Assembly (NCBI RefSeq): GCF_007845675.1
Contig: NZ_VOBR01000012.1
Coordinates: 124,001 to 188,000 of the forward strand
Source of the DNA: Lentzea tibetensis
GTDB lineage: Bacteria > Actinomycetota > Actinomycetes > Mycobacteriales > Pseudonocardiaceae
Reading direction: 5' to 3'
Length of the DNA: 64,000 nt
Shown piece after piece: positions 17,367 through 52,919 of the stretch. The notes below the pieces were generated by a model. It searched no databases. It was not told where the DNA came from and was given only the letters and a program-made list of their open reading frames with translations. The translations under genes were made by a program, and so were the position numbers. The first letter of the stretch is position 1; each line of letters starts with the position of its first letter.

Positions 17367-18767
17367 ATGCCGCAGACCATTGTGCCGGCCGCGAAGTCCG
17401 ATCATCGTGCACCGCACGTGCGGCTGGGGCAGTTGCTGGACGACGGCTCGGGGGAGCCGCTGTTCGCGGACGACGGCAGCCGCGTTCAGGTGGTGCGCGG
17501 ACGCATCGACGGCACGAGCGTCATCGCCTACTGCACGGACGGGTCGTCCATGGGCGGTGCGGTCGGTTACGCCGAGGCGATGCGGATCGTCGATGGCATC
17601 GACACCGCCGTGCGGGACAGCTGTCCCGTGATCGGCGTCTGGCACTCCGGCGGCGCCGCGCTGGCCGAGGGCGTCGAGTCGATGGACGGCGTCGGCCGGA
17701 TGTTCGCGGCCATGACCCGCGCGTCGGGCCGGATCCCCCAGCTCTCGGTCGTGGTCGGCCCCGCGGCGGGCGCGGCCGCGTACGGCCCCGCGCTCACCGA
17801 CATCGTGATCATGTCCAGGTCCGGCCGGATGTTCGTCACCGGTCCGGACGTGGTGCGCGCCGTCACCGGTGAACAGGTCGACATGGAGGAGCTCGGCGGC
17901 GGCGAGGCGCACGGCCGCAAGTCCGGTGTGGCGCACGTGGTCGTGGACACGGAGCAGGCCGCGTTCCTGGCCGCGAGACACCTCGCTGTCCTCTGTGGAC
18001 GACAGGGCCGGTTCCAGCACGTCGGCGAGGTCGGCGAGGACCTGTCCGCTCTGCTCCCCGAGGCGGCCAACCGCGCGTACGACGTGCACCCGCTGGTGCA
18101 CCGGATGGTCGACGAGTTCCAGGAGCTGCAACCGAACTGGGCGGCCAACATCGTCATCGGCCTCGGCAGGCTGGCGGGCCGCACGGTGGGGATGATCGCC
18201 AACAACCCGTTGCGCAAGGGCGGCTGCCTGGACTCCCTGGCGGCCGAGAAGGCCGCGCGGTTCGTGCGGATGTGCGACTCGTTCGGAATCCCCCTCGTCG
18301 TGCTCGTGGACGTGCCCGGCTACCTGCCCGGCGTCACGCAGGAGTGGACGGGCGTCATCCGCCGCGGTGCCAAGCTCCTGCACGCGTTCGCCGAATCCGT
18401 TGTACCACGGGTGACTCTGGTGACGCGCAAGTCCTACGGCGGCGCGTACATCGCCATGAACTCCCGTTCGCTGGGCGCGACCACCGTGTTCGCCTGGCCG
18501 GACGCGGAGGTCGCGGTGATGGGTGCCGACGCGGCCGTGGGCATCCTGCACCGCAAGAAACTCGCCGCCGCACCCGAGCACGCACGCGCCGAGCTGCGCG
18601 CCCGCCTGGTCGCCGAACAGCTGGAAGTCGCCGGTGGCGTCAAGAAAGCCATCGCGATCGGCGCTGTCGACGAGGTGATCGCACCGGCGACCACCCGGCA
18701 CCGGCTCGCGGCCGCACTGGCGGCCGCGCCCGCCGAACGCGGGCGCCACACCAACATCCCGCTGTGA
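17367..18767 (+). CDS. acyl-CoA carboxylase carboxyltransferase (beta) subunit
   Basis: The 466-residue protein has both crotonase-like halves of the acetyl/propionyl-CoA carboxylase beta subunit: DGSSMGGAVGYAEAMRIVDG and WHSGGAALAEGVESM in the first, GCLDSLAAEKAARFVRMCDSF and LVVLVDVPGYLPGVTQEW in the second, plus YGGAYIAMNSRSLGA. It would transfer CO2 from carboxybiotin to an acyl-CoA, supplying malonyl- or methylmalonyl-CoA. Related proteins (e.g. JadN of jadomycin) also occur in angucycline clusters. No biotin carboxylase is nearby, so it must share one encoded elsewhere. ATG 17367 follows AGGGGGA. I place it as the left end of the polyketide cluster. Confidence 0.85.
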   Translation: MPQTIVPAAKSDHRAPHVRLGQLLDDGSGEPLFADDGSRVQVVRGRIDGTSVIAYCTDGSSMGGAVGYAEAMRIVDGIDTAVRDSCPVIGVWHSGGAALAEGVESMDGVGRMFAAMTRASGRIPQLSVVVGPAAGAAAYGPALTDIVIMSRSGRMFVTGPDVVRAVTGEQVDMEELGGGEAHGRKSGVAHVVVDTEQAAFLAARHLAVLCGRQGRFQHVGEVGEDLSALLPEAANRAYDVHPLVHRMVDEFQELQPNWAANIVIGLGRLAGRTVGMIANNPLRKGGCLDSLAAEKAARFVRMCDSFGIPLVVLVDVPGYLPGVTQEWTGVIRRGAKLLHAFAESVVPRVTLVTRKSYGGAYIAMNSRSLGATTVFAWPDAEVAVMGADAAVGILHRKKLAAAPEHARAELRARLVAEQLEVAGGVKKAIAIGAVDEVIAPATTRHRLAAALAAAPAERGRHTNIPL

Positions 18768-18774
18768 AGGGGCT

Positions 18775-18803
18775 TTGACAGGCTCGCCGTTCCGTGCCAC
18801 GCT
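18775..18803 (+). promoter_or_regulatory. candidate promoter of the polyketide operon
   Basis: TTGACA (18775-18780) is followed after 17 bases by CACGCT (18798-18803), about 155 bases ahead of the P450 start. The -35 is perfect and the -10 weak, which would fit activation by a regulator such as the OmpR-type protein of the cluster. Confidence 0.4.
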
Positions 18804-18956
18804 TTGGTGAAGCGGCAGAGTTGTGCCCATTTCCCGGGATCCGAGCCGATCGGCTCGTCTGACACCCCGAACCACGAACTTCCCAGCACTGGGCGAAGTG
18901 TGTCCTCAGTGCTGTCTGCCGCCATGAAGAGTCGCCGCCGTGAGGAGCAATCCGCC

Positions 18957-20135
18957 GTGACGCTCGCGTTCACCAGTTCCGACATCGACCTGTGGTCAGA
19001 GGAAGTGATCCGGTCGCCCTACGAGACGTACCGGCACCTGAGGGATCTCGGACCTGCCGTCTGGCTGGAGCAGTACCAGGTGTTCGTCGTGGCCCGCTAC
19101 CAGGACGTGTACGACGCGCTGCACGACCACGAGGCCTTCTCGTCCGGCTCCGGCGTCGCGCTCAACGAGCAGCTCAACCAGAAGATGAAGGGCAGCGCGC
19201 TGGTCAGCGACCCGCCCTACCACGACCACGTGCGTCGGGTGATGGGCAAACCCTTGACCCCCAGGGCTTTGCGCGAGCACCGCGACGACTTCCAGCGACT
19301 TGCAGACGAGCTCGTCGACCACCTGCTCGAGCGCGGCTCCTTCGACGCCGTCGTCGACTTCGCCCAGCTGTTCCCGCTGTCGGTGGTGCCCGACCTGCTC
19401 GGCTGGCCGTCCGATGGCAGGGACCAGTTCCTCGCGTGGGCGTCCGCCGGGTTCAACGCGCTCGGCCCGATGAACGAGCGGGCGCTGGCCGACATCCCCG
19501 TGCTGGCGGGGATGTGGGCCTTCATGGCGGACATCGTGCAGCCGGGCAGGTTGCGCGCGGGCAGCTGGGGAGCCGACCTGGTCGAGGCCGCCCAGCAGGG
19601 CACCGTGAGCAAGCAGCTGCTGCCCGCGCTGATCGGCGACTACCTCGTCCCGTCGCTCGACACCACGGTCTCCGCGCTGACGAGCGCGATGCTCTTCCTC
19701 GGGCGTCATCCCGAGCAGTGGCAGGCGGTTCGCGCGGACCACTCGCTGATTCCCAACGTGCTCAACGAGGTCATCCGGCTGGAGACGCCGATCCGGGCGC
19801 TGTCACGGGTGCTGACCCGCGAGCGGGACCTGGGCGGGACCGTGCTGCCAGCCGGAGCGCGCGTGGTGCTGCTGTACGGATCGGCCAACCGCGACGAACG
19901 GCACTGGGACTCGCCCGACGAGTTCGACGTCAAGCGCGCCAACGCGAACAGCCACGTCGGCTTCGGCCACGGCATCCACGGCTGCATCGGACAGGGGCTC
20001 GCCCGGCTGGAGGGCCACGCGCTGCTGACCGCGCTGGCGACGAAGGCGGAGACGATCGAGGTCGGCGAGCCGGAGTACCGGGTGCACAACACCATCCGCG
20101 CGATCTCGGCGCTGCCCGCCGCTCTCAAGGCGTGA
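18957..20135 (+). CDS. cytochrome P450
   Basis: The 392-residue protein shows the haem-ligand loop FGHGIHGCIGQGLARLEG, the K-helix ExxR (EVIRLETP) and an I-helix region LVPSLDTTVSALTSA, in which the usual Ala/Gly-Gly pair is replaced by Pro-Ser-Leu before the conserved Asp-Thr-Thr. It is a soluble class I P450, almost certainly reduced through the adjacent ferredoxin. It would oxidise the polyketide or its alkyl starter side chain (inference). GTG 18957 lies 9 bases after GGAG. The longer reading frame back to 18804 runs through the promoter region. Confidence 0.9.
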   Translation: MTLAFTSSDIDLWSEEVIRSPYETYRHLRDLGPAVWLEQYQVFVVARYQDVYDALHDHEAFSSGSGVALNEQLNQKMKGSALVSDPPYHDHVRRVMGKPLTPRALREHRDDFQRLADELVDHLLERGSFDAVVDFAQLFPLSVVPDLLGWPSDGRDQFLAWASAGFNALGPMNERALADIPVLAGMWAFMADIVQPGRLRAGSWGADLVEAAQQGTVSKQLLPALIGDYLVPSLDTTVSALTSAMLFLGRHPEQWQAVRADHSLIPNVLNEVIRLETPIRALSRVLTRERDLGGTVLPAGARVVLLYGSANRDERHWDSPDEFDVKRANANSHVGFGHGIHGCIGQGLARLEGHALLTALATKAETIEVGEPEYRVHNTIRAISALPAALKA

Positions 20136-20146: not shown

Positions 20147-20341
20147 ATGAGGATGATCGTCGACCGCGATCGCTGTGAGGGACACGGGCTCTGCGAGGAC
20201 GTCGCGCCCCGGCTGTTCCAGATCGACGACGACGGTGAGCTGGTGGTGCGGTTCACCGGAGACGTGCCCGCGGGTGAGGAAACCCGGGCGGGCCAGGCGG
20301 TGCGGATCTGCCCGGTCGGCGCGTTGCGCACGTCCGGCTGA
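20147..20341 (+). CDS. [3Fe-4S]-type ferredoxin
   Basis: The 64-residue protein has the CEGHGLCEDVAP motif and a later CPVGAL, giving three cluster cysteines with Ala near the position of a fourth. This is the signature of actinobacterial [3Fe-4S] ferredoxins that serve P450s. It begins 11 bases after the P450 stop and ends 3 bases before the KSIII-like gene, so it is translated with its P450 partner. Confidence 0.9.
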   Translation: MRMIVDRDRCEGHGLCEDVAPRLFQIDDDGELVVRFTGDVPAGEETRAGQAVRICPVGALRTSG

Positions 20342-20344
20342 GCC

Positions 20345-21376
20345 GTGAGCGCCGAGGAGATGTACGTCGCGGGCACGGCGACGCACCTGCCGCCCGCGAT
20401 GAGCGTGGACCAGGCGATCGCCGAGGGCCTCTGCGAGGAGTCGCCTGCCCGTGCCATGCGGGTGGCGTCGGTGACCGTGTCCGAGAAGGAGTCCGGTCCG
20501 GAGCTGGCCGCGACGGCCGCGCGGACCGCGCTCGAACGGGCGGGGACCGCACCGGCCGAGATCGATCTCGTGCTGCACGCGTCGATCTACTACCAGGGCC
20601 AGGAACTGTGGGCACCCGCGTCGTACGTCCAGCGGGTGGCCGTCGGCAACCACTGCCCGGCGATGGAGATCCGCCAGGTGTCGAACGGCGGCATGGCCGC
20701 GATGGAGCTGGCGACGGCGTACCTGCGGGCCGATCCGTCCCGCACCGCCGCCCTGCTGACGTCAGGCGACTGGTTCTGCGCGCCCGGTTTCGACCGCTGG
20801 CGCAGTGATCCCGGCACCGTCTACGCCGACGGCGGCACCGCACTGGTGCTGTCCCGGCGGCGGGGGTTCGCCAGGGTGCGGAGCCTCGCGACGGTGTCCA
20901 GGCCGGAGCTGGAAGGCATGCACCGGGGCACCGTCCCGTTCGGACCGGTTCCGTTCGCCCACCGCGACCGGGTCGACCTGGAGGCGTGCAAGGACGAGTT
21001 CCTCGGTGAGGCGGGCAAGTCCTTCGCGCTGACCCACCTCGTCTCCGGGCAGCGGGAGGCGATCAGGCAGGCACTGGCCGACGCTGGGCTCGACCTCGCC
21101 GACATCGACTGGTTCGTGTTGCCGCACCTGGGATACCGGCGGCTCGCGGCCGGTTACTTCAGCCAGTTCGACATCGACCCCGAGCGCTCGACCTGGCCGT
21201 GGAGCCGCACGGTCGGACACCTCGGGGCGGGCGACCAGTTCGCCGGCTTCGACCACCTCGTCACCACCGGGGCCGCCGGTCCCGGCAGCACGTGCCTGCT
21301 CGTCGGCGTCGGCGCCGGCTTCAGCTGGTCCTGCGCGGTGATCGAGGTGCTCGACACACCGCCATGGGTGGCATGA
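20345..21376 (+). CDS. KSIII-like ketosynthase/acyltransferase with Ser in place of the catalytic Cys
   Basis: The 343-residue protein has the thiolase fold of KAS III. The usual Cys of the nucleophile loop is Ser113 ([12 protein letters not shown]). The His is kept (FVLPHLGYR), while the usual Asn loop reads GHLGAGDQF. DpsC of daunorubicin also uses Ser, and acyl-transferring KSIII relatives such as CerJ have an Asp in this loop. The protein therefore probably selects or transfers a starter acyl group rather than condensing by the standard route. GTG 20345 follows the ferredoxin stop. With the adjacent acyltransferase it forms a starter-unit pair comparable to DpsC-DpsD. Confidence 0.83.
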
Positions 21377-21404: not shown

Positions 21405-22394
21405 ATGACCCGACAGCTCGTGCTGCTGCTGCCCGGACAGGGATCGCAGCACCAGGGGATGGCGGTACCGCTGTACGACCGTGAACCGGTCTTCACCGAG
21501 GTGCTCGACGAGTTCTTCGCGGGCATGGGTGCCGAGGGCCGCAGGCTGCGGGACGACTGGCTCAGCGACGCCCCGGAGATCCCGATCGACGACGGGCCGC
21601 GGGCCCAGCCGCTGCTGTTCGTGATCGGCTACGCGATCGGCCGCGTGCTGCAGGCGAAAGGGCACCAGCCCGCGTTGCTGCTCGGGCACAGCGTGGGGGA
21701 ATTGGCCGCCGCGGCACTCGCCGGGGTGTACGACCTGCCTGCCGCGGCACGCATCCTGCACGGCAGGTCCGCGGCGCTGACCGACGCTCCCGCTGGCGGC
21801 ATGCTGGCCGTCGCCGCACCACCGGACCGGGTCACCGCGCTCATCGAACCCGCCTGGGCCGCAAGGGGTCTGGCGATCGGCGCGGTCAACGGGCCCAACC
21901 AGACGATCCTCTCCGGCGCGGAACCGGAGCTGCGGCTCGCCGCGCGCGCCGCCGAGGCGGCGGAGCTGACCGCACGCCGGGTGCTCAGCATGCAGCCCTT
22001 CCACTCGCCGGTGCTCGACGAGGCCGCCGGGCAGTTCGAGAAGGCCATCGCCGCCGAACGGCTGCACGAACCGAAGATCCCGATCCTGTCCGCTCGCACG
22101 GCCCGCGTGGTCACCGCGGGTGAGGCCGTCGACCCGGCCTTCTGGGCGCGCCTGATGTGCGAGCCGGTGCTGTTCTGGCCGGCCCTGTCCAGCCTGCCCG
22201 CCGACGGCGAGTACACGTTCGCCGAGGCAGGACCGGGCAACAGCCTGTCCACAGCGGCCAGGCGACTGCCGTCCGTCCGAACGGGACGAAGCCGGGTGCT
22301 CACCCTGCTGCCACCGCAGGGAAAGCCGGCCTGGCCGGTGTGGCAGGCGGGACTCGACCAGCTGGCCGCAGACACCACACCGTCACCACAGTGA
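21405..22394 (+). CDS. malonyl/acyl-CoA:ACP acyltransferase
   Basis: The 329-residue protein has the acyltransferase signature: LLLPGQGSQHQGM, the nucleophile elbow LLGHSVGELAAAALAG, GAVNGPNQTILSG and the His in MQPFHSPVLDE. It loads an acyl group onto an ACP. Most type II clusters borrow the fatty-acid enzyme. A dedicated copy next to a KSIII-like gene suggests a role in starter handling, as proposed for DpsD/AknF. It lies 28 bases after the KSIII gene. Confidence 0.88.
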   Translation: MTRQLVLLLPGQGSQHQGMAVPLYDREPVFTEVLDEFFAGMGAEGRRLRDDWLSDAPEIPIDDGPRAQPLLFVIGYAIGRVLQAKGHQPALLLGHSVGELAAAALAGVYDLPAAARILHGRSAALTDAPAGGMLAVAAPPDRVTALIEPAWAARGLAIGAVNGPNQTILSGAEPELRLAARAAEAAELTARRVLSMQPFHSPVLDEAAGQFEKAIAAERLHEPKIPILSARTARVVTAGEAVDPAFWARLMCEPVLFWPALSSLPADGEYTFAEAGPGNSLSTAARRLPSVRTGRSRVLTLLPPQGKPAWPVWQAGLDQLAADTTPSPQ

Positions 22395-22402: not shown

Positions 22403-22732
22403 ATGCACAGCACGCTGATCGTGGCGCGGATGAAGCCCGAGTCCGCACAGGACGTGGCCCGACTGTTCGCCGAGTTCGACACCACCGAGATGCCGCACCT
22501 GATGGGCACGACGCGGCGCGAGCTGTTCCAGTACCAGGGCCTGTACTTCCACCTCCAGGACTTCGACGGCGAGGAAGGTCACCGGGGCATCGACGAGGCC
22601 CGGTCGCACCCGTTGTTCCAGGGCATCAGCGCGGACCTGCGCCCGTTCATCGACCCGTACGACCCGCAGACGTGGCGCTCGCCCGCAGACGCGATGGCGA
22701 CGCGCTTCTACCACTGGGCACCACCTGCCTGA
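22403..22732 (+). CDS. TcmI-family polyketide cyclase
   Basis: The 109-residue protein contains the family pattern TLIVARMKPESAQDVARLF, then LYFHLQDFDG and the C-terminal SPADAMATRFYHWAPP. Such small cyclases close the last rings of aromatic polyketides (JadI/LanF/PgaF type in angucyclines). It sits immediately before KS-alpha, exactly the F position of angucycline clusters. ATG 22403 follows GAGGAAAG. Confidence 0.9.
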   Translation: MHSTLIVARMKPESAQDVARLFAEFDTTEMPHLMGTTRRELFQYQGLYFHLQDFDGEEGHRGIDEARSHPLFQGISADLRPFIDPYDPQTWRSPADAMATRFYHWAPPA

Positions 22733-22767: not shown

Positions 22768-24024
22768 ATGGGGCGTCGAGTTGTCATCACGGGCATCGGG
22801 GTGCTGGCGCCGGGCGGCGCGGGCGTCAAGGAGTTCTGGAGTCTGCTCAGTGAGGGGCGCACCGCGACCCGGCCACTGACCTTCTTCGACCCGAGCCCGT
22901 TCCGCTCCCAGGTGGCCGCCCAGGTCGACTTCGTCCCCGAGGCCCACGGGTTCAGCCCGCAGGAGATCCGGCGGATGGACCGCGCGGCGCAGTTCGCGGT
23001 GGCCGCCGCGGCCGAGGCCGTCTCCGACAGCGGGTGCGAATTCGCCCAGGTCGACCCGAGCCGGATCGGGGTCAGCATCGGCAGCGCGGTCGGCGCCACG
23101 ATGAGCCTCGAAGAGGAGTACCGGGTCGTCAGCGACAACGGCAGGCTCGAGCTGGTCGACCACGGCTACACGGTGCCGCACCTCTACGACCACTTCGTGC
23201 CGAGCTCGTTCGCCGCCGAGACGGCGTGGAAGGTCGGGGCGGAGGGTCCGGTGACCGTCGTGTCGACCGGCTGCACGTCCGGGATCGACTCGGTCGGTTA
23301 CGCCGCCGAGCTGATCAGGGAGGGCTCCGCGGACATCATGATCGCCGGTGCGACCGACGCGCCGATCTCACCGATCACGGTGGCCTGCTTCGACGCGATC
23401 AAGGCCACCACTCCGCGCAACGACGACCCCGAGCACGCGTCGCGGCCGTTCGACTCGACCCGCAACGGGTTCGTGCTGGCCGAGGGCGCGGCCGTGCTCG
23501 TGCTGGAGGAGCTGGAGAGCGCGCGGCGGCGGGGTGCGCACGTCTACGCCGAGGTGGCCGGGTACGCCACGCGCTCCAACGCCTACCACATGACCGGGCT
23601 GCGTCCGGACGGCAGGGAGATGGCCGAGGCGATCAGGATGGCGATGAACGAGGCCCGGATGGACGCCGAGGACGTCCACTACGTCAACGCGCACGGTTCG
23701 GGCACCAAGCAGAACGACCGGCACGAGACGGCCGCGTTCAAGCGCGCGCTCGGCGACCACGCGTACCGGACGCCGGTGAGCTCCATCAAGTCGATGGTCG
23801 GTCACTCGCTCGGCGCGATCGGGACGATCGAGATCGTCGCCTCCGTGCTGGCGATCGAGAACAACGTGGTGCCGCCCACCGCGAACCTGCACAACCCGGA
23901 TCCCGAGTGCGACCTGGACTACGTCCCGGTCACGGCCAGGGAGTGGCAGACCGACGCCGTGCTGACGGTCGGCAGCGGGTTCGGCGGCTTCCAGAGCGCC
24001 ATGGTGCTGCGGAGGGTCCCGTGA
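22768..24024 (+). CDS. minimal PKS ketosynthase alpha (KS-alpha)
   Basis: The 418-residue protein carries the full KAS II triad: Cys in [14 protein letters not shown], His in [14 protein letters not shown] and His in [11 protein letters not shown]. It condenses malonyl-ACP units with its KS-beta partner to build the poly-beta-ketone. A strong ribosome site (AGGAGGTG) precedes the ATG. Its stop overlaps the GTG of KS-beta (GTGA), the usual coupling for a 1:1 heterodimer. Confidence 0.97.
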
Positions 24025-25226
24025 GGCCGGCGGTGACCGGGATCGCCGCGGTCGCGCCCAACGGCCTCGGCACCGAGGAGTTCTGGGCAGGGACGCTGGC
24101 CGGGCGCACCGGACTCGGCGTGCTGACCCGCTTCGACCCGGAGCGCTACCCGGCGCGACTGGCGGGCGAGGTCAAGGGGTTCACCGCCGCGGACCACCTG
24201 TCCAGCCGGATGCTGCCGCAGACCGACCACATGACCCGGCTCAACCTCGTCGCCGGGGACTGGGCGCTGGCCGACGCCGGAGTGCGGCCGCGGGAGTGGC
24301 CGGACTTCGACATGGGCGTCATGACGGCGAGCTCGGCAGGCGGTTACGAGTTCGGCGAGCGCGAGCTGCGGAACATGTGGCACAAGGGCCACGAGCACGT
24401 CAGCGCCTACCAGTCGTTCGCCTGGTTCTACGCGGTGAACAGCGGCCAGCTGTCGATCCACAACGGGATGCGCGGGCCGAGCGGCGTCGTGGTCAGCGAC
24501 CAGGCCGGCGGGCTCGACGCGCTCGCACAGGCCCGCAGGCAGATCCGCAAGGGCACCCCGCTGATGCTCACCGGCGCCGTCGACTCCTCGCTCTGCTCGT
24601 GGGGCTGGGTCGCGCACCTGGCGGGCGGCAGGCTGAGCACCAGCCAGGACCCGGACCGGGCCTACCTCCCCTTCGACGCGGCGGCGAACGGCCACGTCCC
24701 CGGTGAGGGCGGGGCACTGCTCGTGCTCGAGGACGGTGCCGCGGCCAGGGCCCGCGGAGCGCGGATCTACGGCGAGATCGCCGGCTACGGCGCGACGTTC
24801 GACCCGCGGCCGGACAGCGGACGGCCGCCCGCGCTGCGCCGGGCGATCGAGCTCGCGCTGCGGGACGCGGACGCCGCGCCGGGTGACGTCGACGTGGTGT
24901 TCGCCGACGCGGCCGCGATCCCGGAGCTCGACCACGTCGAGGCCACCGCGATCACCGGCGTGTTCGGCCGCGAGGCGGTACCGGTGACCGCACCGAAGAC
25001 GATGACCGGGCGACTGAGCTCCGGCGCGGGCGCACTGGACGTGGCGACCGCACTGCTGTCCATCCGGGACTCGGTGATCCCCGCGACCGCGAACGTCTCA
25101 CCCGCGCCCGGCTACGGCCTCGACCTCGTCACGGGCGAGCCGAGGCAGATTCCCGTGACCACCGCGCTGGTCATCGCCCGCGGGCACGGCGGCTTCAACT
25201 CCGCCGTCGTGGTCCGCGCCGTCTGA
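24021..25226 (+). CDS. minimal PKS chain-length factor (KS-beta)
   Basis: The 401-residue protein parallels KS-alpha but has Gln where the nucleophile Cys would be ([12 protein letters not shown]), the hallmark of decarboxylating chain-length factors. The second His motif is also lost ([17 protein letters not shown]). It sets chain length; the gene order suggests a decaketide, but the gating residues were not modelled. The GTG start overlaps the KS-alpha stop. Confidence 0.96.
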
Positions 25227-25257: not shown

Positions 25258-25527
25258 ATGGCTGACGCACGTGTGACCCTGGACGACCTCAAGCGGATCC
25301 TGCTCGACGCGGCGGGTGCCGACGAGGGCGTCGACCTGAGCGGTGACGTCGTCGACGTCGCCTTCTCCGACCTCGGCTACGACTCGCTCGCGCTGCTCGA
25401 GGCGGCCAACCGGATCCAGCGCGAGTACCGCGTGCAGCTCGACGACGACGCGCTCGCCGCGGCGGAGACACCGGGCGCGTTCCTCGACCTCGTCAACGAG
25501 CACCTGGCGGCAGGCTCCCCCGCCTGA
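25258..25527 (+). CDS. acyl carrier protein
   Basis: The 89-residue protein has the phosphopantetheine Ser in DLGYDSLALLEAAN. It carries the growing polyketide. It starts 31 bases after KS-beta with a GAAAGGAC site, completing the minimal PKS. Confidence 0.95.
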   Translation: MADARVTLDDLKRILLDAAGADEGVDLSGDVVDVAFSDLGYDSLALLEAANRIQREYRVQLDDDALAAAETPGAFLDLVNEHLAAGSPA

Positions 25528-25553: not shown

Positions 25554-26339
25554 ATGTCCACCGAGCAGAAGCGGGTCGCACTGGTGACCGGGGCGACCAG
25601 TGGTATCGGGCTCGCCGTGGCGCAGACCCTCGGCGCGCAAGGGCACCGGGTGTTCCTGTGCGCCCGCAAGCCCGACGGTGTCGACTCGGCCGTCGAGCAG
25701 CTGCGCGACGAGGGTGTCGAGGCGGACGGCGCGCAGTGCGACGTCACCGACGGCGAACAGATCCGCGCGTTCGTGCGGGCCGCGGTCGAGCGGTTCGGCA
25801 CGGTCGACGTGCTGGTCAACAACGCCGGGCGGGCCGGTGGCGGGGTGACCGCCGACATCACGGACGAGGTCTGGTTCGACGTGATCAACACGAACCTCAC
25901 CAGCGTGTTCCAGATGACCCGTGAGGTGCTCACCGCGGGCGGCATGCGGGAGAAGGACCGGGGCCGGATCATCAACATCGCCTCGACCGCGGGCAAGCAG
26001 GGTGTGGTGCTGGCCGCGCCGTACTCGGCGTCCAAGCACGGCGTCGTCGGCTTCACCAAGGCGCTCGGCAACGAGCTGGCGCCGACCGGGATCACCGTGA
26101 ACGCGGTCTGCCCCGGATACGTGGAAACCCCGATGGCACAAGGGGTGCGCAGCCGGCACGCGGCGTTCTACGGCACCACCGAGCAGGCGATCCTGGAGAG
26201 GTTCCAGGCCAAGATCCCGCTCGGCCGCTACTCCACTCCCGACGAGGTCGCCGGACTGGTCGGCTACCTGGCCTCCGACACCGCCGCATCCATCACCGCA
26301 CAGGCGATCAACGTCTGCGGCGGTCTCGGAAACTTCTAG
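25554..26339 (+). CDS. polyketide C9-type ketoreductase (SDR)
   Basis: The 261-residue SDR has the cofactor motif VTGATSGIGLAVAQTL, NNAG (VLVNNAGRAGGG), Ser in INIASTAGKQG and Tyr-Lys in YSASKHGVVGF. It is closely patterned on ActIII-type ketoreductases, which reduce the C9 carbonyl of the nascent chain with NADPH. It sits at the D position after the ACP. Strong ribosome site AGGAGAAG. Confidence 0.94.
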   Translation: MSTEQKRVALVTGATSGIGLAVAQTLGAQGHRVFLCARKPDGVDSAVEQLRDEGVEADGAQCDVTDGEQIRAFVRAAVERFGTVDVLVNNAGRAGGGVTADITDEVWFDVINTNLTSVFQMTREVLTAGGMREKDRGRIINIASTAGKQGVVLAAPYSASKHGVVGFTKALGNELAPTGITVNAVCPGYVETPMAQGVRSRHAAFYGTTEQAILERFQAKIPLGRYSTPDEVAGLVGYLASDTAASITAQAINVCGGLGNF

Positions 26340-31367: not shown

Positions 31368-31394
31368 CGCCGGCCGTGCTCGTGGCGTCAGCTC
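31361..31394. terminator. bidirectional hairpin overlapping two stop codons
   Basis: GAGCTGACGCC (31361-31371) pairs perfectly with GGCGTCAGCTC (31384-31394) around a 12-base loop. The stem contains the TGA of the OmpR-type gene and reaches into the stop of the convergent aldo/keto reductase. Confidence 0.65.
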
Positions 31395-32226: not shown

Positions 32227-32282
32227 GTGCGGATTCGCCCCTCAGTCGAAGTCGGGTCACGGACAACACCGACCCCAGCACC

Positions 32283-33721: not shown

Positions 33722-33813
33722 GCTGCCCCACTTCACCACTGGCGGACATTCGTCACAAAGCATGCCGGACACTTCCCTGCGACCGTCAAGACGATCCAGC
33801 ACACTTTTCAATG

Positions 33814-45195: not shown

Positions 45196-46377
45196 CTACG
45201 CGGGTTCGGCCTCCGCCACGCGAGCCTTCTTGCTGGTGCCGAACCTGCGCTGCATCGGGCGTTCGACGAACGTGTGGAGCGCCGCGGACAGCAGGATCCC
45301 CAGCGCGAGGACGCCGAGCACGAATCCGGCCGCGGTCAGGTAGGTCGGCTGGTACTCCCAGCCGAGCAGGTAGACCACCGTGACGATCCCGAAGAAGTGC
45401 ACGAGGTAGAACGCGTAGGAGATCTGGCCGAGCCAGACCATGAACGGCGTGGCCAGCCACGACCGTCCCGATCGGACGTCCGCCATCGCGACCGCCGGGA
45501 TCAGCAGCGCGATCGGGATGACCGTGGCCGCCACGATCGCGTAGTTCTTGGGCACGTTCAGCGCCACCGCGTACCCGCCGAGGAACACGAGCCCCGCCGC
45601 CCAGGCCGGCACCCGGATCCACCGCCCGGTGAGCACGATCCGGGCCATCAGGATGCCGAGCACGAACTCCGCGAGCCTGCTGAGCGGCAGCACGTAGATG
45701 AACCAGTACTCCCAGCTGCCGAGGCCCTCGTAGGCGGCTTCACCGGCCGGGAGGAGCCGCGCCAGCTGCGGGACGCAGAAGACCAGTGCCGCCATCGCGG
45801 CCACCCAGTACCAGAGCCGCTCGGGGCGGATCCGGCTGATTCCCTTCAGCAGCAACGGGAAGCAGAGGTAGAACAGCGCCTCGACGGACAGCGACCAGCT
45901 CACCAGGTTGAACGAGAAGGCGAGGTTCAGATCGGGTATCCAGGCGTGCACCAGCAGCAGCTGCGGCACCAGGCCGGGCAGCTGCTCGCCGACCGGCAGG
46001 AAGCCGAAGTTCTGGCCCAGCCACACCATGAACGCCGTCGCGATCAGGAACGCCACGAAGTGGTTGGGGTAGATCTTGAAGAACCGCCGTCGCCAGAACT
46101 TCGGCGCGGTGTCGCTCGCACGGGCCGACCAGGTCAGCACGAACCCGCTGAGCACGAAGAAGACCGAGACCCCGACGTAGCCGCCGAGGCTCGTGACGGT
46201 CCTGATCGAATCGCCCACCGGCCCCTGGGGCAGCGCGGTCGGCAGCAGGAACACGTGCGACAGGAAGACCATGAACGCCGCGATCCAGCGCAGGCCGGTC
46301 AATGAATCCAGCTGCGCCGGCATGCTCGCCGCGGAGCCCGCTCTCTCCAGCTGGCCGGTGGCCACTTTCTTACCCAC
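45196..46377 (-). CDS. membrane acyltransferase (acyltransferase_3 family)
   Basis: The 393-residue protein has about ten hydrophobic segments and the family start LDSLTGLRWIAAFMVFLSHV, whose His belongs to the proposed active site. It also has VFFVLSGFVLTWSA and RFFKIYPNHFVAFLI. Such enzymes O-acylate sugars on macrolides and other antibiotics (MidB/CarE-like). Within a sugar operon an O-acetylation of the aminosugar is plausible. The start codon is GTG 46377. Confidence 0.88.
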   Translation of the reverse strand: MGKKVATGQLERAGSAASMPAQLDSLTGLRWIAAFMVFLSHVFLLPTALPQGPVGDSIRTVTSLGGYVGVSVFFVLSGFVLTWSARASDTAPKFWRRRFFKIYPNHFVAFLIATAFMVWLGQNFGFLPVGEQLPGLVPQLLLVHAWIPDLNLAFSFNLVSWSLSVEALFYLCFPLLLKGISRIRPERLWYWVAAMAALVFCVPQLARLLPAGEAAYEGLGSWEYWFIYVLPLSRLAEFVLGILMARIVLTGRWIRVPAWAAGLVFLGGYAVALNVPKNYAIVAATVIPIALLIPAVAMADVRSGRSWLATPFMVWLGQISYAFYLVHFFGIVTVVYLLGWEYQPTYLTAAGFVLGVLALGILLSAALHTFVERPMQRRFGTSKKARVAEAEPA

Positions 46378-46394: not shown

Positions 46395-47642
46395 CTATCC
46401 GTAGATTTCGAATTCAGGTAGCGCGAAAACCAGCTTGCCGCCACCGGCGAGGTATTCCTGCTCACGCTCGATGAAACCGTCGCGGTAGATCCACGGCAGG
46501 ACGAGCAACTGGTCGGGCTTGCGCGCCTTGGCCTCTTCTTCCGACACGATCGGGATCTTGGTGCCCGCCGTGAAGCACCCGTGCTTCTCGGCGTTGACCT
46601 CACCGATCACGGGCAGGTCGTCCTCCGTGATGCCGCAGTACTGCAGGACCACGTTGCCCTTGGTCGACGCGCCGTAGCCGAGGGTCAGCTTGCCCGCGGC
46701 CTTGGAGGCGTCGAGGAACTCGCGCAGCTCGTCGCGGTGCGCCGTGATGCGCTGCCCGAACGCGTCGAACGGGACCATCGTGTCGAGCTTGGCCTCGGTC
46801 TCCTTCGCCCGGAGCGCCGCCAGCCCGGCCTCGTCGACCTGGCGGGTGCTGGTGTCCTTGGCCAGCACCGTGTTCAGGCTGCCGCCGTAGACGTCGACGA
46901 CCTTGGCCTGCACCACCTTGAGCCCGGCCCGCTCCGCCATGTACTCGATCTGCTGGAGCCCGTAGAACTCCAGGTGCTCGTGGCAGATGTTGTCGTAGCA
47001 GTTGGTGTCGAGCATGCTCGGCAGGTAGCTGTGCTCCACCATCCAGACGCCGTCGTCGGCCAGCACCGCCCGGACGTCCTTCATGAACGCGATCGGGTCG
47101 GGCAGGTCGTAGAACATCGCGATCGACGTGACGACCTTCGCCTTGCGGTCGCCGACCCGGTCCTGGAAAGCCTTGGCGGAGAAGAAGTCGACGATCAGCT
47201 CGGCGCCCGCCGGGTAGCGGTCGCGGAACTTCTCCGCGGACGGGTCGCACCCGACCAGCTGCCGCCCGTCCCGCGGGTACTGGTGCAGCAGCGTGGAGTC
47301 GTTGCTGCCGATGTCCAGCACGAGGTCGCCGGGCCCGACGTCGACGAGCGCGGTCACCTCCGCGACCTTGGTCTTCAGGTGGTTGACCATGAAGGGCCGG
47401 ATGCTCGACCGGTAGCCGTACCGCTCGCCGTACATGAGCGTCATGTCGGCGTCGTGCCGGAGCTGGACCAGCCCGCACCCGCCCGGCGCGCACTTGACGA
47501 GCTCGAGCGGAGCCACCAGGTCCGGCTCGTCGCGGGTCAGGGGAAAGACACCGGTGAGCGCCTGCTCACCCAGGTCGAGGATCGTCAGCAGTTCCCGATT
47601 ACCACAAATGCGGCAGGCATTTATGGTCTCGTACTTCAGCAT
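46395..47642 (-). CDS. dTDP-3-keto sugar C3-methyltransferase (TylCIII/EvaC-like)
   Basis: The 415-residue protein has the zinc-binding N-terminus (ACRICGNRELL and a later CAPGGCGL), the SAM fold LVLDIGSNDSTLLHQYP, HEHLEFYGLQQIEYM and the C-terminal hydrolase-like domain LGYGASTKGNVVLQYCG. This three-domain layout defines the TylCIII/EryBIII/TcaB9 family that methylates C3 of a 3-keto (or aminated) deoxysugar. It is the first gene of the minus-strand sugar operon. The 166 bases upstream contain its promoter, not clearly recognisable. Confidence 0.94.
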   Translation of the reverse strand: MLKYETINACRICGNRELLTILDLGEQALTGVFPLTRDEPDLVAPLELVKCAPGGCGLVQLRHDADMTLMYGERYGYRSSIRPFMVNHLKTKVAEVTALVDVGPGDLVLDIGSNDSTLLHQYPRDGRQLVGCDPSAEKFRDRYPAGAELIVDFFSAKAFQDRVGDRKAKVVTSIAMFYDLPDPIAFMKDVRAVLADDGVWMVEHSYLPSMLDTNCYDNICHEHLEFYGLQQIEYMAERAGLKVVQAKVVDVYGGSLNTVLAKDTSTRQVDEAGLAALRAKETEAKLDTMVPFDAFGQRITAHRDELREFLDASKAAGKLTLGYGASTKGNVVLQYCGITEDDLPVIGEVNAEKHGCFTAGTKIPIVSEEEAKARKPDQLLVLPWIYRDGFIEREQEYLAGGGKLVFALPEFEIYG

Positions 47643-47808: not shown

Positions 47809-50800
47809 TCAGCGCGCCCAGCGGACCGGCCCAGGCGGGTCGTACCGGCACGTCGAACCCGTCGACACGCACTGCCGCAGATGCTCGGCCAGCGCCGGGT
47901 GCCGGTCGTCGAGCCTGCGCAGACTGTTGCGGATCCGCTCGGTCACAGCCTTGCGCGTCCGCTCAGTCGCGTCGCCCAGCCGGCGTGACCGGCCGAGCAA
48001 GCCGGTGGCCCTGCGGATCTCGGTCAGCAACGCCTCCCGTTCCCGGTCGAGCTCGGCGGCGCGTGCGTCGGCGCCCTGTGCGAGTGCGGCGTCGATCCGC
48101 TCGTCGAGCTGGGTCAGTCGCTTGCGGTAGGCGGACTTGGCGCGCTCGTCCAGCACCGGGTCGGACCCGAGCCGTCGCGCGCCGCGGGCCGGCTCATCGC
48201 CGGCCGCGAACAGCAGGTCGGCGGCGGGCACGTCCTTCCCCGGACGACCGAGCAGCACGTGCAGGTCGCGCAACCCCTTGGCGTCCGGCACGTGCACGGT
48301 CACGCCTTCGTAGGTGAGCCACCACACCTGCCCGTCGAACCGGAAGGTGTCGCCCGGCGACTCGGCCACCTCGGGCTCGGCCCGCAGGAGATGGGCGACT
48401 CCGAGGTCGTGGGCGTCGCGCGCCGCCGCTTCGGTGAGCGCGGCGGCGCGTTCGGCGTCACCGGGCCCGGCCCGAGCGTTCAGCACCTCGGCGAGGTGGC
48501 AGCGGGCGCGCACCGACCACGGGCGGGCACCCAGCCGGTCGGCCGCGGACCGCGCGGCGGTGAACCCTTCGGCAGCGGCGTCCCAGTTCCCGTCGGCAGC
48601 GTCGAGGAGCGCCGTCCAGAACACGACAGGACCGTCGATCGACGCTCCGAACATCGTCAGCCACTGCCCGGCGATCGGCGCCAGTTCGGCGCGCACCCGG
48701 CCACGCGCAGACGGATCACCGCCCGCGGCGGCCAGCTGAGCGCGCAGGCGCAGCCACAGCGGTTCGTACCAGCGGGACACCGGTTCGCTCGCGCCGCCAC
48801 CCCTGGCGGCGAGCCGTGAAGCCGCGGCGATGTCGCCCCGTTCGACCGCGGTCACGGCCAGCAACAGCTCGGGACACGGGTGGTCCCGGCCCGCGGCGGA
48901 CCGGACCAGCGCGTCGGCGGCGTCGAACCGGCCCCGCGCCAGCTCCAGCGTCCACCGCTGCTGGATCCGCAACGTCGCGAGGTCGCCGTTCGCGGCTACG
49001 TCCGCGCGGTTGTCCCGTTCGATCTCGTCGGCCTGCTCGATGCAGGCGCCCGCCTCGTCGAAACGGCCGGTCAGGGTCGCGAAGGCCGTCCGCGTCCACA
49101 GCGCGGTCGACGACGGATCCGCGGTCGCTCGATCCTCCAGCTCGGCCATCCCGGCCGGATCCCCCAGCTCCAGCGACGTCACCGCCCGCAGCAACGCCGC
49201 CAGCTGCATGACCGAGTGGTCGGACTTCCGCTGCGCCGCCGCCCCGAGCTCCTCGGCGATCGCCAGCCGCTCGACGGCGGTACCGGGCGACCAGATCGTG
49301 TCGTGGCGGGCCATGAGTCCTTCCATGAGCGCCACGTCGTCGCCCGCCTCGCGGGCGATCTCGACGGCCCGCGCGGTCAGCTCCCGTTCCCGCTCGACGT
49401 CCGAGCCGCCGTGTCCGCCGGAGTCGAAGAGGGCGGCGTGCGCCTCGTTGATCAGGTCGGTGGTCAGCCGCACCGCCTCGGGTGGGTGGACGAGCCAGAC
49501 CGACGCCCGCAGCCGCAACGCGGCGCGCACCAGCAGCACCGGGTCGCCCGCGGACCGAGCCGCGGCCGCCACGTCGTGGAACGTGCGCAGTGCGGCGGCC
49601 TCGTCACCCATGTGGTGCTGCGACGAGCCGAGGTCCAGCGCCACGGCCGCCCACTCGTGGGCGTCGTCGGGCGGCACGAGACGCAGCGCTCTGGTGAGGT
49701 GGACGCTCGCCTCGCCGGACGCCATGCGGCCCCACGCGTCATCGGCGGCCGCCCTCAGCAGGGCGACGGCGGTGGACGCGGCCACCTCGGGCACACCGAG
49801 GTACGCGTGGTGGGCGGTCTCACCGGGAGCGGCACGGGCCGCGCAGGCGGGCAGTGCCTCGAAGGCGCCGACCGCGGCCGCGTGCCAGCGGCGGGCGTCG
49901 GCCTCGGCGAGGTTCTCGTACAGGGTTTCGCGCACGAGGTCGTGCACGAACGCCAGCCTGCCCTGCTCGGCGCGGGGGACGACCAGACGCGCAGACACCG
50001 CCTCGGCCAGCAACGAGTTCACCTCGCGGCCCGGCCTGCCGGTCATCTCGGCGAGCACCTCGCGGTCGAACTCGGGGCCGAGAACAGCCGCGGCCGCGAG
50101 GAGTTCCACCACCGGCGCGGGCAGCAGACCCAGCCGGCGTTCAACGGCGTCGCGCACGCCCGGCGCGACCACGTCGACCGAGTTGGTGCTGTGCCACAGC
50201 CGAGCGGTCTGCTCGACGAAGAAGGGATTGCCACCGGTCCTGCGATGGACCTCGGCGACCAGCCCGCGCGACGGTTCGCGGCCCGCGGTGCGCGCGAGCA
50301 GCGCGCGGACGTCGTCGGGCCCGAGCTCGGTCAGCGTCACCGACGACGCCTTGGGCAGCAGGGGAAGCAGCAGCGGGCCGAGCGGATGCCCGCAGCTCTC
50401 GACCTCCACGTCCCGGTAGACACCGATCACCAGCAGCTGCTCGAACCAGGCGTGGCGGGTGACGAACTCCAGCAGCCGGACCGACGGCGGGTCGGCCCAG
50501 TGCAGGTCGTCGAGCACGACGACCAGCGGGCGCCCGCGTGCCGCGGTGACCAGCAGCGTGGTCACCGCGTCGTGCAGCCCGAAACCGTCACCGCTCGCCG
50601 CCGGACCGCCGGTTTCCCCCAGCAGCGCGGCGATCTCGCCGCCGGCGGCGTCGGCCCACGCCTCGGGTGTCATCGTCCGGCGCAGGCCGCGCAGGATCTG
50701 CATCCACGGCCAGTAGCTCGGCGCGTCCTCCCGGTCCCAGCACGTGCCGGTGGCGACGAGCGCGCCGCGTCGTTCGGCGGTCGCGGCGGCCTCGGCCACC

Positions 50801-50925
50801 AGCACCGTCTTGCCGATGCCCGCCTCACCCGTCACGAAGACCAGTCCCCCGTGGCTGTCGAGCGTGCGGGTCACCGCGGTGTCGAGCAGCGCCGCCTGCC
50901 GGGCCCGGCCGAGCAGCGTCGTCAC
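47809..50925 (-). CDS. large AAA-ATPase/TPR regulator without LuxR helix-turn-helix
   Basis: The 1038-residue protein has an N-terminal AAA/STAND ATPase (Walker [19 protein letters not shown] near residue 25-45, Walker [16 protein letters not shown] near 145). A long helical TPR-like middle and a C-terminal DNA-binding-like region ([40 protein letters not shown]) follow. The usual LuxR HTH of LAL regulators is missing. The C-terminal tail is typical of a group of actinobacterial ATPases often found near secondary-metabolite genes. GTG 50925 follows GGGGAGG. It is divergent from the exporter and may regulate the cluster. Confidence 0.85.
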
Positions 50926-51032
50926 CGCGGGCCTCCCCTCACACCGGTGTTGCCGCCATTTCGAATGTTCCGGCCGCCACAGCCGTTGTGGCGCCCCCAC
51001 AGGTGGAACTCAAGGCTACCGAGGGAGCTTGT

Positions 51033-52034
51033 GTGCGCACTGACGCGGGAAAGCGGCCGGGCGACGGCCGCCAGCTGGCCATCGAGGCCCGCGGACTGGT
51101 CAAGACGTTCGGGGAGACGCGGGCACTGGACGGGCTCGACCTCACGGTTCCCGCGGGCGGGGTCTACGGCGTGCTCGGCCCGAACGGGGCGGGCAAGACG
51201 ACCGCGCTGCGCATCCTGGCGACGCTCCTGCCACCGGACTCCGGCAGCGCGCGGGTGCTCGGGCACGACGTGAGCGCCGACGCCGACGCGGTGCGCGGCA
51301 AGATCAGCCTCACCGGCCAGTTCACCTCGGTCGACGAGGAGCTGACCGGCCGGGAGAACCTGATCCTGCTCGGCCGCCTGCTGGGGTACCGGCACACCGA
51401 CGCCAAGCTGCGCGCCGGACAGCTGCTGAAGGCGCTCGGCCTCACCGACGCCGGCGACCGTCAGGCCAAGCACTACTCGGGCGGCATGCGACGGCGGCTC
51501 GACATCGCGGCGGGCATCGTGGTGACCCCCAGCGTGATGTTCCTCGACGAGCCGACGACCGGGCTCGACCCGCGCAGCCGCAACCAGGTGTGGAACATCG
51601 TCCGCACCCTGGTCGCCAGGGGCACCACGGTCGTGCTCACGACGCAGTACCTGGACGAGGCCGACCAGCTCGCCGACCGGATCGCGGTCATCGACCACGG
51701 CCGGGTCATCGCCGAGGGCACCCCCGGCGCGCTGAAGGCGTCGGTCGGCTCCGGGACCCTGCGGATCCGGGTGCAGGACCCGGCCCAGCGGTTCGACGCG
51801 GTGCGCGTGCTGACCGAGGCGCTCGACGTCGAGGTGCAGCTGGAGTCCGATCCCTGCGCGCTCACCGCCAGGGTCGACGACAGCGAGCGCAGCGTCCACG
51901 CGCTCGGCGAGCTGATGCGAGCGGGCATGACGCCCGCCGAGTTCGCACTCGGCCAGCCCAGTCTCGACGAGGTCTTCCTGGCGCTGACCGGCCACCCGGC
52001 CGAGAGCGCGCCGGACGACGAAGCAGCGGCCTGA
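51033..52034 (+). CDS. DrrA-type ABC transporter ATP-binding protein
   Basis: The 333-residue protein has Walker A ([20 protein letters not shown]), signature [15 protein letters not shown], Walker [19 protein letters not shown] and the C-terminal extension of daunorubicin-resistance ATPases ([17 protein letters not shown]). It probably exports the glycosylated polyketide and confers self-resistance together with the adjacent permease. GTG 51033 follows GAGGGAG. Confidence 0.93.
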
Positions 52035-52064
52035 CCCCACAGCTCGAAGAAAGGACACGGTCGC

Positions 52065-52919
52065 ATGACCACAGACGTCCCGGCGTCGGCCACCCGCGAG
52101 GAGCCGATCGACTACGACATGCTCGCGGCGCTGGACGCGGGTGAGCGACCTGGGCGGGCCGGCGGGTTCTCCGCGTCGATGAGCCATCTCTACCGGGCGA
52201 TGCTGCGCGTCAAGCACAGCCCCGCGCAGATCATCGACGTCACGCTGTTCCCGCTGATCATGCTGCTGATGTTCACGTTTCTGTTCGGCGGCGCGCTCTC
52301 CGACGGCGACACCGGCGCGTACCTTCAGTTCTTCCTGCCGGGCGTGCTGGTGAACACGGTGCTCATGATCACCATGTACGTGGGGATGGGCCTGTCCAGC
52401 GACGCCGAGAAGGGCGTGTTCGACAGGTTCCGCTCGCTGCCGATGTGGCGGCCGTCGGCCATCATCGGCCCGCTGCTCGCCGACGCCTTCCGCTACACGA
52501 TGGCGTCGATCATGATGCTGACCTTCGGCCTGATCCTCGGCTACCGGGCGGAGGGCGGCGTCGTCGGCGTGGTGCTCGCGGTGCTCGTGCTCATCGTGTT
52601 CGCGTTCTGCCTGTCCTGGTTGTGGACCCTGGTGGGCTTGGTGATGCGCAGCGAGAAGGCCGTGACCGCGGTCAGCATGATGGTGCTGATGCCGTTGACG
52701 TTCGCGAGCAACGTCTACGTCAACCCCGCCACGATGCCCGGCTGGCTCGAGGCGTTCGTCAGCGTCAACCCGATCAGCCACGTCGTGACGGTGGTCCGCG
52801 GCCTGACGAGCGGAGCCGGTGTCACCACCGGCCAGCTCGGACTGGTGCTGGCCGAGGCGGCCGCTCTGCTGCTCCTCTTCGGCCCGCTCACGATGCGCAA
52901 GTACCGGACGATGAACTGA
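52065..52919 (+). CDS. DrrB-type ABC transporter permease
   Basis: The 284-residue protein has six hydrophobic segments of the ABC-2 permease type (LFPLIMLLMFTFLFGGALSD, LPGVLVNTVLMITMYVGMGL, VLVLIVFAFCLSWLWTLVGL). It also carries the family motif AEKGVFDRFRSLPMWRPSA. It pairs with the upstream ATPase 30 bases away. I take it as the right end of the polyketide cluster. Confidence 0.92.
   Translation: MTTDVPASATREEPIDYDMLAALDAGERPGRAGGFSASMSHLYRAMLRVKHSPAQIIDVTLFPLIMLLMFTFLFGGALSDGDTGAYLQFFLPGVLVNTVLMITMYVGMGLSSDAEKGVFDRFRSLPMWRPSAIIGPLLADAFRYTMASIMMLTFGLILGYRAEGGVVGVVLAVLVLIVFAFCLSWLWTLVGLVMRSEKAVTAVSMMVLMPLTFASNVYVNPATMPGWLEAFVSVNPISHVVTVVRGLTSGAGVTTGQLGLVLAEAAALLLLFGPLTMRKYRTMN

Follow-up and report, generated by a model that had tools for sequence, protein, structure and literature searches.

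A candidate gene cluster for a glycosylated, atypical angucycline in Lentzea tibetensis, with a LanV-type reductase that lacks its catalytic tyrosine

Which kind of polyketide is made by a gene cluster in which angucycline-type genes stand beside a starter-unit enzyme pair, a putative ring-oxidising oxygenase and the genes for a branched aminosugar? The question is raised by a stretch of 64,000 nucleotides from Lentzea tibetensis (the window; contig NZ_VOBR01000012.1, C14:124001-188000 in our numbering of the 9.36-Mb genome), for which an earlier note, made from the letters alone, had proposed an aminoglycosylated and possibly rearranged angucycline with a non-acetate starter. Gene calling by codon bias gave 57 genes across the window, 34 of which (g18-g51, positions 17418-52919) make up the cluster, and identities were assigned to most genes by Pfam, NCBIfam and PDB searches. 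Judged by its gene content, conservation, catalytic motifs and family membership, all of which are read directly from the DNA, the cluster on balance probably directs the synthesis of a glycosylated 'atypical' (ring-B-oxidised) angucycline that is propionate-primed and carries a sugar of the N,N-dimethylvancosamine type. The reading of the earlier note holds in outline. The cluster is ordinary in kind and uncommon in combination, and its unexpected feature is a short-chain dehydrogenase/reductase (SDR) of the LanV type without the catalytic Tyr.

The cluster looks like a real, apparently intact and conserved biosynthetic unit, more than a product of chance, because 31 of its 34 genes have syntenic orthologues (64-85% identity, mean 75.4%) in Actinoplanes sp. 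NBRC 103695 (NZ_BSTL01000031.1). From a scan with KS-beta, the chain length factor, the best 80 of 528 loci were taken (counts over '80 loci' refer to these), and the Actinoplanes locus was one locus among them, matching g19-g33, g35 and g36 at 63-85%. The two clusters are nearly colinear, the exception being an inverted block, g49-g51. They also differ in that no orthologue of g18, g34 or the acyltransferase g47 was seen in the Actinoplanes cluster region, in that rmlB stands there between the orthologues of g33 and g35 (L115:1402-2403) and is absent from the window cluster, and in that two of the sugar genes are fused. Within the genus, a related KS-alpha occurs in all 25 genomes, and identity to g24 is at most 71% in the 24 others, which makes the cluster a rarity there. 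By rpoB the genome stands nearest to Saccharothrix carnea (96.7%), ahead of Actinosynnema (91.7%), among nine named genomes compared; a 16S gene was not detected in the assembly. The literature searched held no description of the Actinoplanes cluster, nor did open-licence titles and abstracts hold one of the window cluster, in line with the earlier note, which knew of no described cluster uniting all of these genes; MIBiG and most of the subscription literature lay outside this comparison.

Starter unit and polyketide core

Genes for priming, chain assembly and the two FAD-dependent oxidations:

20345..21376, plus strand: g21, DpsC-like priming ketosynthase of the KSIII type (PDB 4xs7, daunorubicin polyketide synthase, DpsC; 450 bits)
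21405..22394, plus strand: g22, acyltransferase, DpsD/AknF type by position (GHSVGE)
22403..22732, plus strand: g23, TcmI-type polyketide cyclase (PF04673, 149 bits)
22768..24024, plus strand: g24, KS-alpha (active-site Cys in STGCTSG)
24021..25226, plus strand: g25, KS-beta (Gln for Cys, VVSDQAGG)
25273..25527, plus strand: g26, acyl carrier protein
25554..26339, plus strand: g27, polyketide ketoreductase (YSASK intact)
26348..27295, plus strand: g28, aromatase/cyclase (PF10604/PF03364)
27300..28742, plus strand: g29, M-class FAD monooxygenase (PDB 2qa2 CabE, 479 bits; 2qa1 PgaE, 466 bits)
43711..45162, minus strand: g46, E-class (PgaE-like) FAD monooxygenase (by the FAD oxygenase tree)

The DpsC-like enzyme g21, for which CerJ scored 231 bits in the same PDB search, conserves a catalytic triad (S113, H292, D297) that aligns with S118-H297-D302 of DpsC (PMC12664062; this and the other papers given by PMC number are cited from excerpts), once the tag on the crystallised protein is taken into account. 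With the triad kept and the acyltransferase g22 adjoining, g21 and g22 most likely prime the polyketide synthase (PKS) with propionate, so that an ethyl group would replace the usual methyl, and since DpsC is promiscuous in vitro (PMC12664062), other short starters are also possible. The non-acetate starter of the earlier note is thus upheld by the triad. Lomaiviticin and gilvocarcin are likewise propionate-primed (PMC12664062), and relatives of nenestatin carry ethyl or homo groups (PMC13028485), as predicted here; gilvocarcin differs in having no priming ketosynthase, according to the excerpt of PMC12664062. In three genomes whose gene content we guess to be lomaiviticin-like, no DpsC-like gene was found within 40 kb. 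DpsC-like genes are not rare as such, with 74 of 298 genomes of the Lentzea family holding one at E <=1e-60 and 14 of 300 genomes of the Actinoplanes family at E <=1e-90. As a separate observation, the KS-alpha relatives in all 24 other genus genomes are 68-71% identical to g24, in several cases with a DpsC-like gene at a distance of about 10-12 kb. About 130 kb upstream of the cluster, the same contig carries another pair of type II ketosynthases (G000:C14:16004-18030).

Between 22403 and 29505 the genes follow the order TcmI-type cyclase, KS-alpha, KS-beta, acyl carrier protein, ketoreductase, aromatase/cyclase, FAD monooxygenase and SDR, just as the earlier note had described, and with the Cys of KS-alpha and the Gln of KS-beta in place this is the arrangement of an angucycline type II PKS. 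These enzymes would build a benz[a]anthracene, which g46 and g29 would then oxidise. In a FastTree phylogeny of 213 FAD oxygenases the two fall into separate classes, for which 'E' and 'M' are our own labels, so that both partners of the PgaE/PgaM type are present in the cluster; g46 has its own branch within the E class, shared with Actinoplanes, and a relative of g29 occurs in 70 of the 80 loci. PKS motifs and PgaE/CabE-related oxygenases therefore bear out an angucycline-type assembly, and the other enzymes that had been named, the KSIII-like/acyltransferase pair, the P450-ferredoxin pair, the class D monooxygenase and the two FAD monooxygenases, were all identified.

A pairing of priming enzymes like this one, a DpsC-like triad with an adjacent acyltransferase, is known from the daunorubicin and aclacinomycin pathways (DpsC-DpsD, AknE2-AknF), and together with the SnogD-like glycosyltransferase g41 it would suit an anthracycline-type cluster. 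In the window, however, the pair is coupled to an angucycline-type PKS, a LanV-type SDR and oxygenases of the M and E classes, and KS-beta does not group with DpsC-bearing loci. In the KS-beta tree (104 rows, FastTree, midpoint root for drawing) the window and Actinoplanes pair at 100 among loci with PgaE/PgaM-type oxygenases, and seven rows lie on the opposite side, the DpsC-bearing G022, G053, G065, G139, G270 and L059 together with G408. An anthracycline is accordingly the least probable of the readings weighed here. The grouping of KS-beta with anthracycline-type clades that the earlier note would have taken as a refutation was not seen, in a tree whose deep split has a support of 89, which is not strong, and which holds no named anthracycline or pentangular enzyme. 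One row of it, L023, is strain CB02414, which the title of a paper ties to rubiginones.

A Tyr-less reductase, an AlpJ-like oxygenase and ring B

Genes for the proposed ring-B chemistry and further oxidative tailoring:

28735..29505, plus strand: g30, LanV/UrdMred-type SDR with His for the catalytic Tyr (PDB 4osp, 335 bits; 4kwh, 318 bits)
34816..35499, plus strand: g37, didomain ABM oxygenase, AlpJ-like, 227 residues (PDB 9kdp, 243 bits; 5f9p, 169 bits)
18957..20135, plus strand: g19, cytochrome P450 (heme-Cys motif FGHGIHGCIG; 82% in Actinoplanes)
20153..20341, plus strand: g20, small ferredoxin-like P450 partner (by position and like pairing in other loci; no NCBIfam match)
32588..33739, minus strand: g35, class D flavin monooxygenase, HsaA/XiaF type

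By its closest structures, 4osp and 4kwh, which we take to be UrdMred and LanV, g30 belongs to the LanV/UrdMred family, and it is 77% conserved in Actinoplanes. Where the family has the YxxxK motif, g30 reads HAMAK, with His (codon CAC, 29212-29214) at the position of the catalytic Tyr, and the Actinoplanes protein has His likewise. For this reason g30 is not classed as a working 6-ketoreductase, and the earlier analogy to landomycin and gaudimycin pathways (LanV) keeps the enzyme family and is weakened by the loss of the Tyr. Across 46 aligned SDR rows, His stands in four (the window, Actinoplanes twice and a further genome, G741) and Tyr in 42.

In the loci compared, this substitution goes with the presence of an AlpJ-type oxygenase gene. 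Such genes (E <=1e-30) were found in 26 genomes in total, 7 of 296 in the Lentzea family, 9 of 394 in the class and 11 of 300 in the Actinoplanes family, with the present genome counted in both the family and the class set; the stretches around them were mostly 40 kb, some shorter (G408 20 kb, G326 19 kb, and G514 9 kb, a contig that recurs as L054 with 17.7 kb). All three loci with a His-bearing SDR (the window, Actinoplanes and G741) carry an AlpJ-type gene, and none was detected within the stretches examined around the 42 Tyr-bearing SDRs. Conversely, 32 AlpJ-type loci comprise three with the SDR, all of them His-bearing, and 29 without a detected SDR in the stretch examined, and 42 of the 70 loci without an AlpJ-type gene have the SDR (relatives of at least 45% identity; repeat loci L006, L068, L072 and G514 left out). 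A Tyr-bearing SDR thus occurs in 0 of 32 against 42 of 70 loci (Fisher p 4e-10, a value that ignores kinship); the 70 loci have flanks of at most 10 kb, so an AlpJ-type gene may lie beyond them, as it does for L006. Among plasmid records, the six SDR records read out of 83 all have Tyr and no relative of g37 (two of the six, L255 and L258, share nearly the same gene order), and the two ABM records read out of 22 are both without this SDR. Most simply read, pathways in which an AlpJ-type oxygenase acts do without reduction at C-6, and the exchange of Tyr for His in g30 speaks for a pathway that probably leaves C-6 unreduced and oxidises ring B.

Full-length similarity of g37 extends to PDB 5f9p, presumably AlpJ, at 42% identity over 233 residues (E 5e-57). 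Like AlpJ, JadG, GilOII and Flu17, it is a full-length didomain ABM protein that stands alongside FAD oxygenases of the E and M classes, and the predicted pathway would share AlpJ-family chemistry (PMC11181247) with those of lomaiviticin, nenestatin and gilvocarcin. Acting after the FAD oxygenases, g37 would oxidise ring B, possibly with cleavage, which like the order of all steps and every substrate is a prediction; the P450-ferredoxin pair and the class D oxygenase would add further tailoring. In an ABM tree of 34 rows, however, g37 falls into a 14-row clade with Actinoplanes and 9kdp, separated at 100/100 from the 20-row clade that holds 5f9p. It is for that reason called AlpJ-like and is not classed as an AlpJ orthologue, so that, of the kinship with AlpJ, JadG and GilOII claimed before, homology and length hold, and 5f9p, the presumed AlpJ and the only one of the three placed in the tree, lies in another clade. 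Several clusters of the 14-row clade carry a P450-ferredoxin pair resembling g19-g20, and a DpsC-like neighbour of at least 50% identity accompanies the AlpJ-type gene in only two of the 26 genomes, the present one and Actinoplanes. Weaker DpsC-like relatives were seen in G779 (37%) and, elsewhere in the genome, in G232 (38%), and in G080 the AlpJ-type gene has no PKS match within 40 kb.

Other ABM genes deserve mention in their own right. The ABM protein of G118 (L131 18896-19630) is identical to PDB 9kdp in 222 of 222 residues compared, and near its gene lie a P450-ferredoxin pair, a class III aminotransferase protein and an O-methyltransferase. Loci of S. bicolor and uw30 share the order rmlA, ABM oxygenase, glycosyltransferase; a search there for a GilR-type berberine bridge enzyme gave matches on other contigs where comparable, and kinship with gilvocarcin was not used. 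Plasmid L257 of Streptomyces sp. Mut1 has an angucycline-type cluster whose SDR is fused and keeps its Tyr, and there two tandem ABM genes (2403-3811; 219 and 212 residues) adjoin a P450-ferredoxin pair. By annotation they were candidates for the AlpJ type, and they were rejected as another ABM family with a partial match only (E 8e-8 at best).

Some findings weigh against the favoured reading, those on the sugar being given with it below. All His-bearing SDR rows form a single clade (95/92), with G741 on a long branch, so that the loss of the Tyr is one event and not three. With weak support (85), the M-class oxygenase g29 falls largely among enzymes from loci whose SDR keeps the Tyr and in which an AlpJ-type gene was not detected. 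No member of the strongly supported clade that holds g37, sister to that of 5f9p, is tied here to ring cleavage, which leaves ring opening by g37 a possibility. The placements of g29 and g37, together with the presence and conservation of a LanV/UrdMred-type SDR, would suit a typical angucycline with ring B kept, that is, an aquayamycin-, landomycin- or gaudimycin-like core with an ethyl group and an aminosugar on which g37 only hydroxylates, for example at C-5. Grecocycline, with its aminosugar at C-5, may offer a precedent in the 227-residue monooxygenase GreL, named as a possible C-5 hydroxylase (PMC4943663); it resembles the window cluster further as an aminosugar angucycline with a LanV-like reductase and a 379-residue UrdGT2-like glycosyltransferase, and differs in that its sugar is tolyposamine, made via a 4-aminotransferase, and in that the word propionate is absent from PMC4943663. 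Against the His in g30, and with a Tyr-bearing SDR in none of the 32 AlpJ-type loci over the stretches examined, we regard retention of ring B as possible but rather doubtful.

Returning to ring-B oxidation, we tentatively extend it to a role for g30, at about the same level of doubt or slightly more. The Tyr-less SDR may have been kept in the AlpJ-type lineage of the window, Actinoplanes and G741, no longer to reduce C-6 but as a scaffold, a dehydratase or a chaperone of its paired FAD oxygenase, from which the AlpJ-type oxygenase would receive a 6-oxo/6-hydroxy intermediate that has not been reduced. The switch between ring-B-intact and ring-B-oxidised products would then lie in whether the SDR works, is missing or lacks its Tyr, and the angucycline made here would have an oxidised ring B, an ethyl group and N,N-dimethylvancosamine on an undescribed skeleton. 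If this is true, the Tyr or His of a LanV-type SDR would serve as a simple marker for that fork.

The aminosugar and its attachment

Genes for the sugar, its transfer and its possible acylation:

33921..34784, plus strand: g36, glucose-1-phosphate thymidylyltransferase, RmlA (TIGR01207, 424.5 bits against a cut-off of 360.65)
35496..36635, plus strand: g38, glycosyltransferase of the LanGT2/UrdGT2 family (PDB 4rig, 343 bits; 2p6p, 334 bits)
36967..37683, minus strand: g39, sugar N,N-dimethyltransferase, DesVI/TylM1 type (PDB 3bxo 'N,N-dimethyltransferase', 274 bits; 3pfg, 240 bits)
38334..39533, minus strand: g41, SnogD-like glycosyltransferase (PDB 4amb SnogD, 186 bits)
39545..40177, minus strand: g42, dTDP-sugar epimerase, RmlC/EvaD type (PF00908)
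40177..41286, minus strand: g43, DegT-type aminotransferase, probably acting at C-3 (PF01041, 362 bits)
41313..42281, minus strand: g44, 4-ketoreductase-like extended SDR (YDRQN motif)
42302..43714, minus strand: g45, NDP-hexose 2,3-dehydratase (PF03559, 512 bits)
45196..46377, minus strand: g47, membrane O-acyltransferase, Acyl_transf_3 (PF01757)
46395..47642, minus strand: g48, NDP-sugar C-methyltransferase (PF08421, PF13489, PF08484)

The families of the vancosamine (Eva) gene scheme are represented by the 2,3-dehydratase g45, the aminotransferase g43, the C-methyltransferase g48, which carries all three domains of its type, the epimerase g42 and the 4-ketoreductase g44. The closest structures to g39, 3bxo and 3pfg, are presumably DesVI and TylM1, as expected of a sugar N,N-dimethyltransferase. 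The branched N,N-dimethyl aminosugar of the earlier note is well borne out by the dimethyltransferase, the C-methyltransferase and the 2,3-dehydratase, and its O-acyltransferase was found in g47. From these families the sugar is predicted to be of the N,N-dimethylvancosamine type, stereochemistry included. Its synthesis would take g36, g45, g43, g48, g42, g44 and g39, with the 4,6-dehydratase step contributed by a gene that lies outside the cluster in the same genome. We know of no branched N,N-dimethyl sugar in lomaiviticin, nenestatin or gilvocarcin.

The remaining counter-evidence concerns this pathway. The cluster yielded no dTDP-glucose 4,6-dehydratase, though the Actinoplanes copy has one, so the sugar set, which the earlier note had called complete, is not; when 31001-34000 was searched with RmlB of the Actinoplanes cluster, no remnant of the gene appeared at 32226-32588 (best E 1.0). 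The step may be supplied by a genomic RmlB (G000:C24:112598-113557), the sole match above the curated cut-off among 16. In g44, a predicted 4-ketoreductase by family, YDRQN has Asn (41856-41858) for the catalytic Lys, where seven of seven other relatives read have YxxxK; the Actinoplanes copy shares the Asn, which makes a sequencing error unlikely. Finally, two glycosyltransferases stand against genes for one clear sugar. Of these, g41 is the likelier aminosugar transferase, because the one glycosyltransferase match in the G232 cluster, which has aminosugar genes, is a relative of g41. Its partner g38, closest to 4rig and 2p6p (LanGT2 and UrdGT2, as we take them to be), would attach a sugar to the core through a C- or an O-linkage, with g47 as a possible acyltransferase for the sugar or the core.

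Two side observations belong here. In Actinoplanes the 2,3-dehydratase and the 4-ketoreductase, two genes in the window, form one frame of 801 residues (joined L113-L116, 30610-33015). The G232 cluster (L129, L130) is a related aminosugar angucycline-type cluster with an AlpJ-type gene and without matches to starter enzymes or a C-methyltransferase; one of its proteins, with a weak P450 match below the cut-off, is a possible glycosyltransferase activator.

The sugar recalls the pluramycins. N,N-dimethylvancosamine is a sugar of kidamycin, whose cluster shares two glycosyltransferases and the sugar C- and N-methyltransferases with that of the window (PMC9452638), and hedamycin has a DpsC-like enzyme (PMC12664062). 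Yet kidamycin and hedamycin have an anthrapyran core, and type I PKS modules provide their starters (PMC10646177), whereas a ketosynthase search of the genome matched only KS-alpha and KS-beta within the window and no type I ketosynthase there, and two N-methyltransferases in kidamycin (PMC9452638) compare with one here. With angucycline-type oxygenases and an AlpJ-type enzyme in the same cluster, a pluramycin-type (anthrapyran) product is very improbable.

The combination of ethyl group and amino sugar raises another possibility, that the cluster makes an already known compound whose own cluster is unsequenced or lies outside the sequences compared here, such as a 3-ethyl benz[a]anthraquinone that bears an amino sugar and resembles the brasiliquinones, or a benzanthrin. 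Brasiliquinones have a 3-ethyl group and an amino sugar and benzanthrins have amino sugars, and we know of no need for an AlpJ-type oxygenase in either. Both come from rare actinomycetes, Nocardia for the former and Nocardia or Amycolatopsis lurida for the latter, and count as quinone antibiotics among the angucyclines (PMC11766693, PMC8532670). A benzanthrin mutant was obtained by gene disruption in strain CS090a, which is not among the strains named as sequenced in the excerpt of PMC5797532. The comparison is by description and not by cluster sequence, and we consider this identity unlikely.

Should the favoured reading of a ring-B-oxidised, aminoglycosylated angucycline be true, DpsC-type propionate priming, AlpJ-type ring oxidation and N,N-dimethylvancosamine would be joined in one pathway across two actinobacterial families, and genome mining would gain two strains as likely places to look for an aminosugar angucycline not yet characterised.

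Remaining genes and flanks

Other genes of the cluster:

17418..18767, plus strand: g18, AccD/PccB-type acyl-CoA carboxyltransferase (PF01039, 413 bits; many of the 80 loci have relatives at 41-46%)
29564..30532, plus strand: g31, RCC1-repeat protein, secreted-looking (PF13540)
30621..31367, plus strand: g32, OmpR-type response regulator
31393..32226, minus strand: g33, aldo/keto reductase
32283..32582, minus strand: g34, 99-residue open reading frame at the site of the Actinoplanes 4,6-dehydratase
37713..38294, minus strand: g40, NAD(P)H:FMN reductase-like protein (PF03358)
47809..50925, minus strand: g49, large AAA_16 ATPase, regulator-like (PF13191)
51033..52034, plus strand: g50, ABC transporter ATPase, DrrA-like (PF00005, PF13732)
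52065..52919, plus strand: g51, ABC-2 transporter membrane protein, DrrB-like (PF01061)

The carboxyltransferase g18 probably supplies malonyl-CoA, and its membership in the cluster is less sure because it has no match in the Actinoplanes cluster. The RCC1-repeat protein g31 lies inside the cluster and is about 72-73% identical in that of Actinoplanes; we know of no role for such a protein in pathways of this kind.

Outside the cluster, g06 and g07 (5677-7105) share their first 14 residues, as if part of a gene for an FAD-binding protein had been duplicated. The gene call g53 falls short of its reading frame (53146-53664), whose 172 residues match a protein of 212 residues that adjoins the Actinoplanes cluster (38% over 166 residues). 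The right flank (55353-63519) encodes a GH92 protein, a GH59 protein with a ricin-type lectin domain and a GGDEF/ATPase/TPR protein, which are probably unrelated to the cluster.

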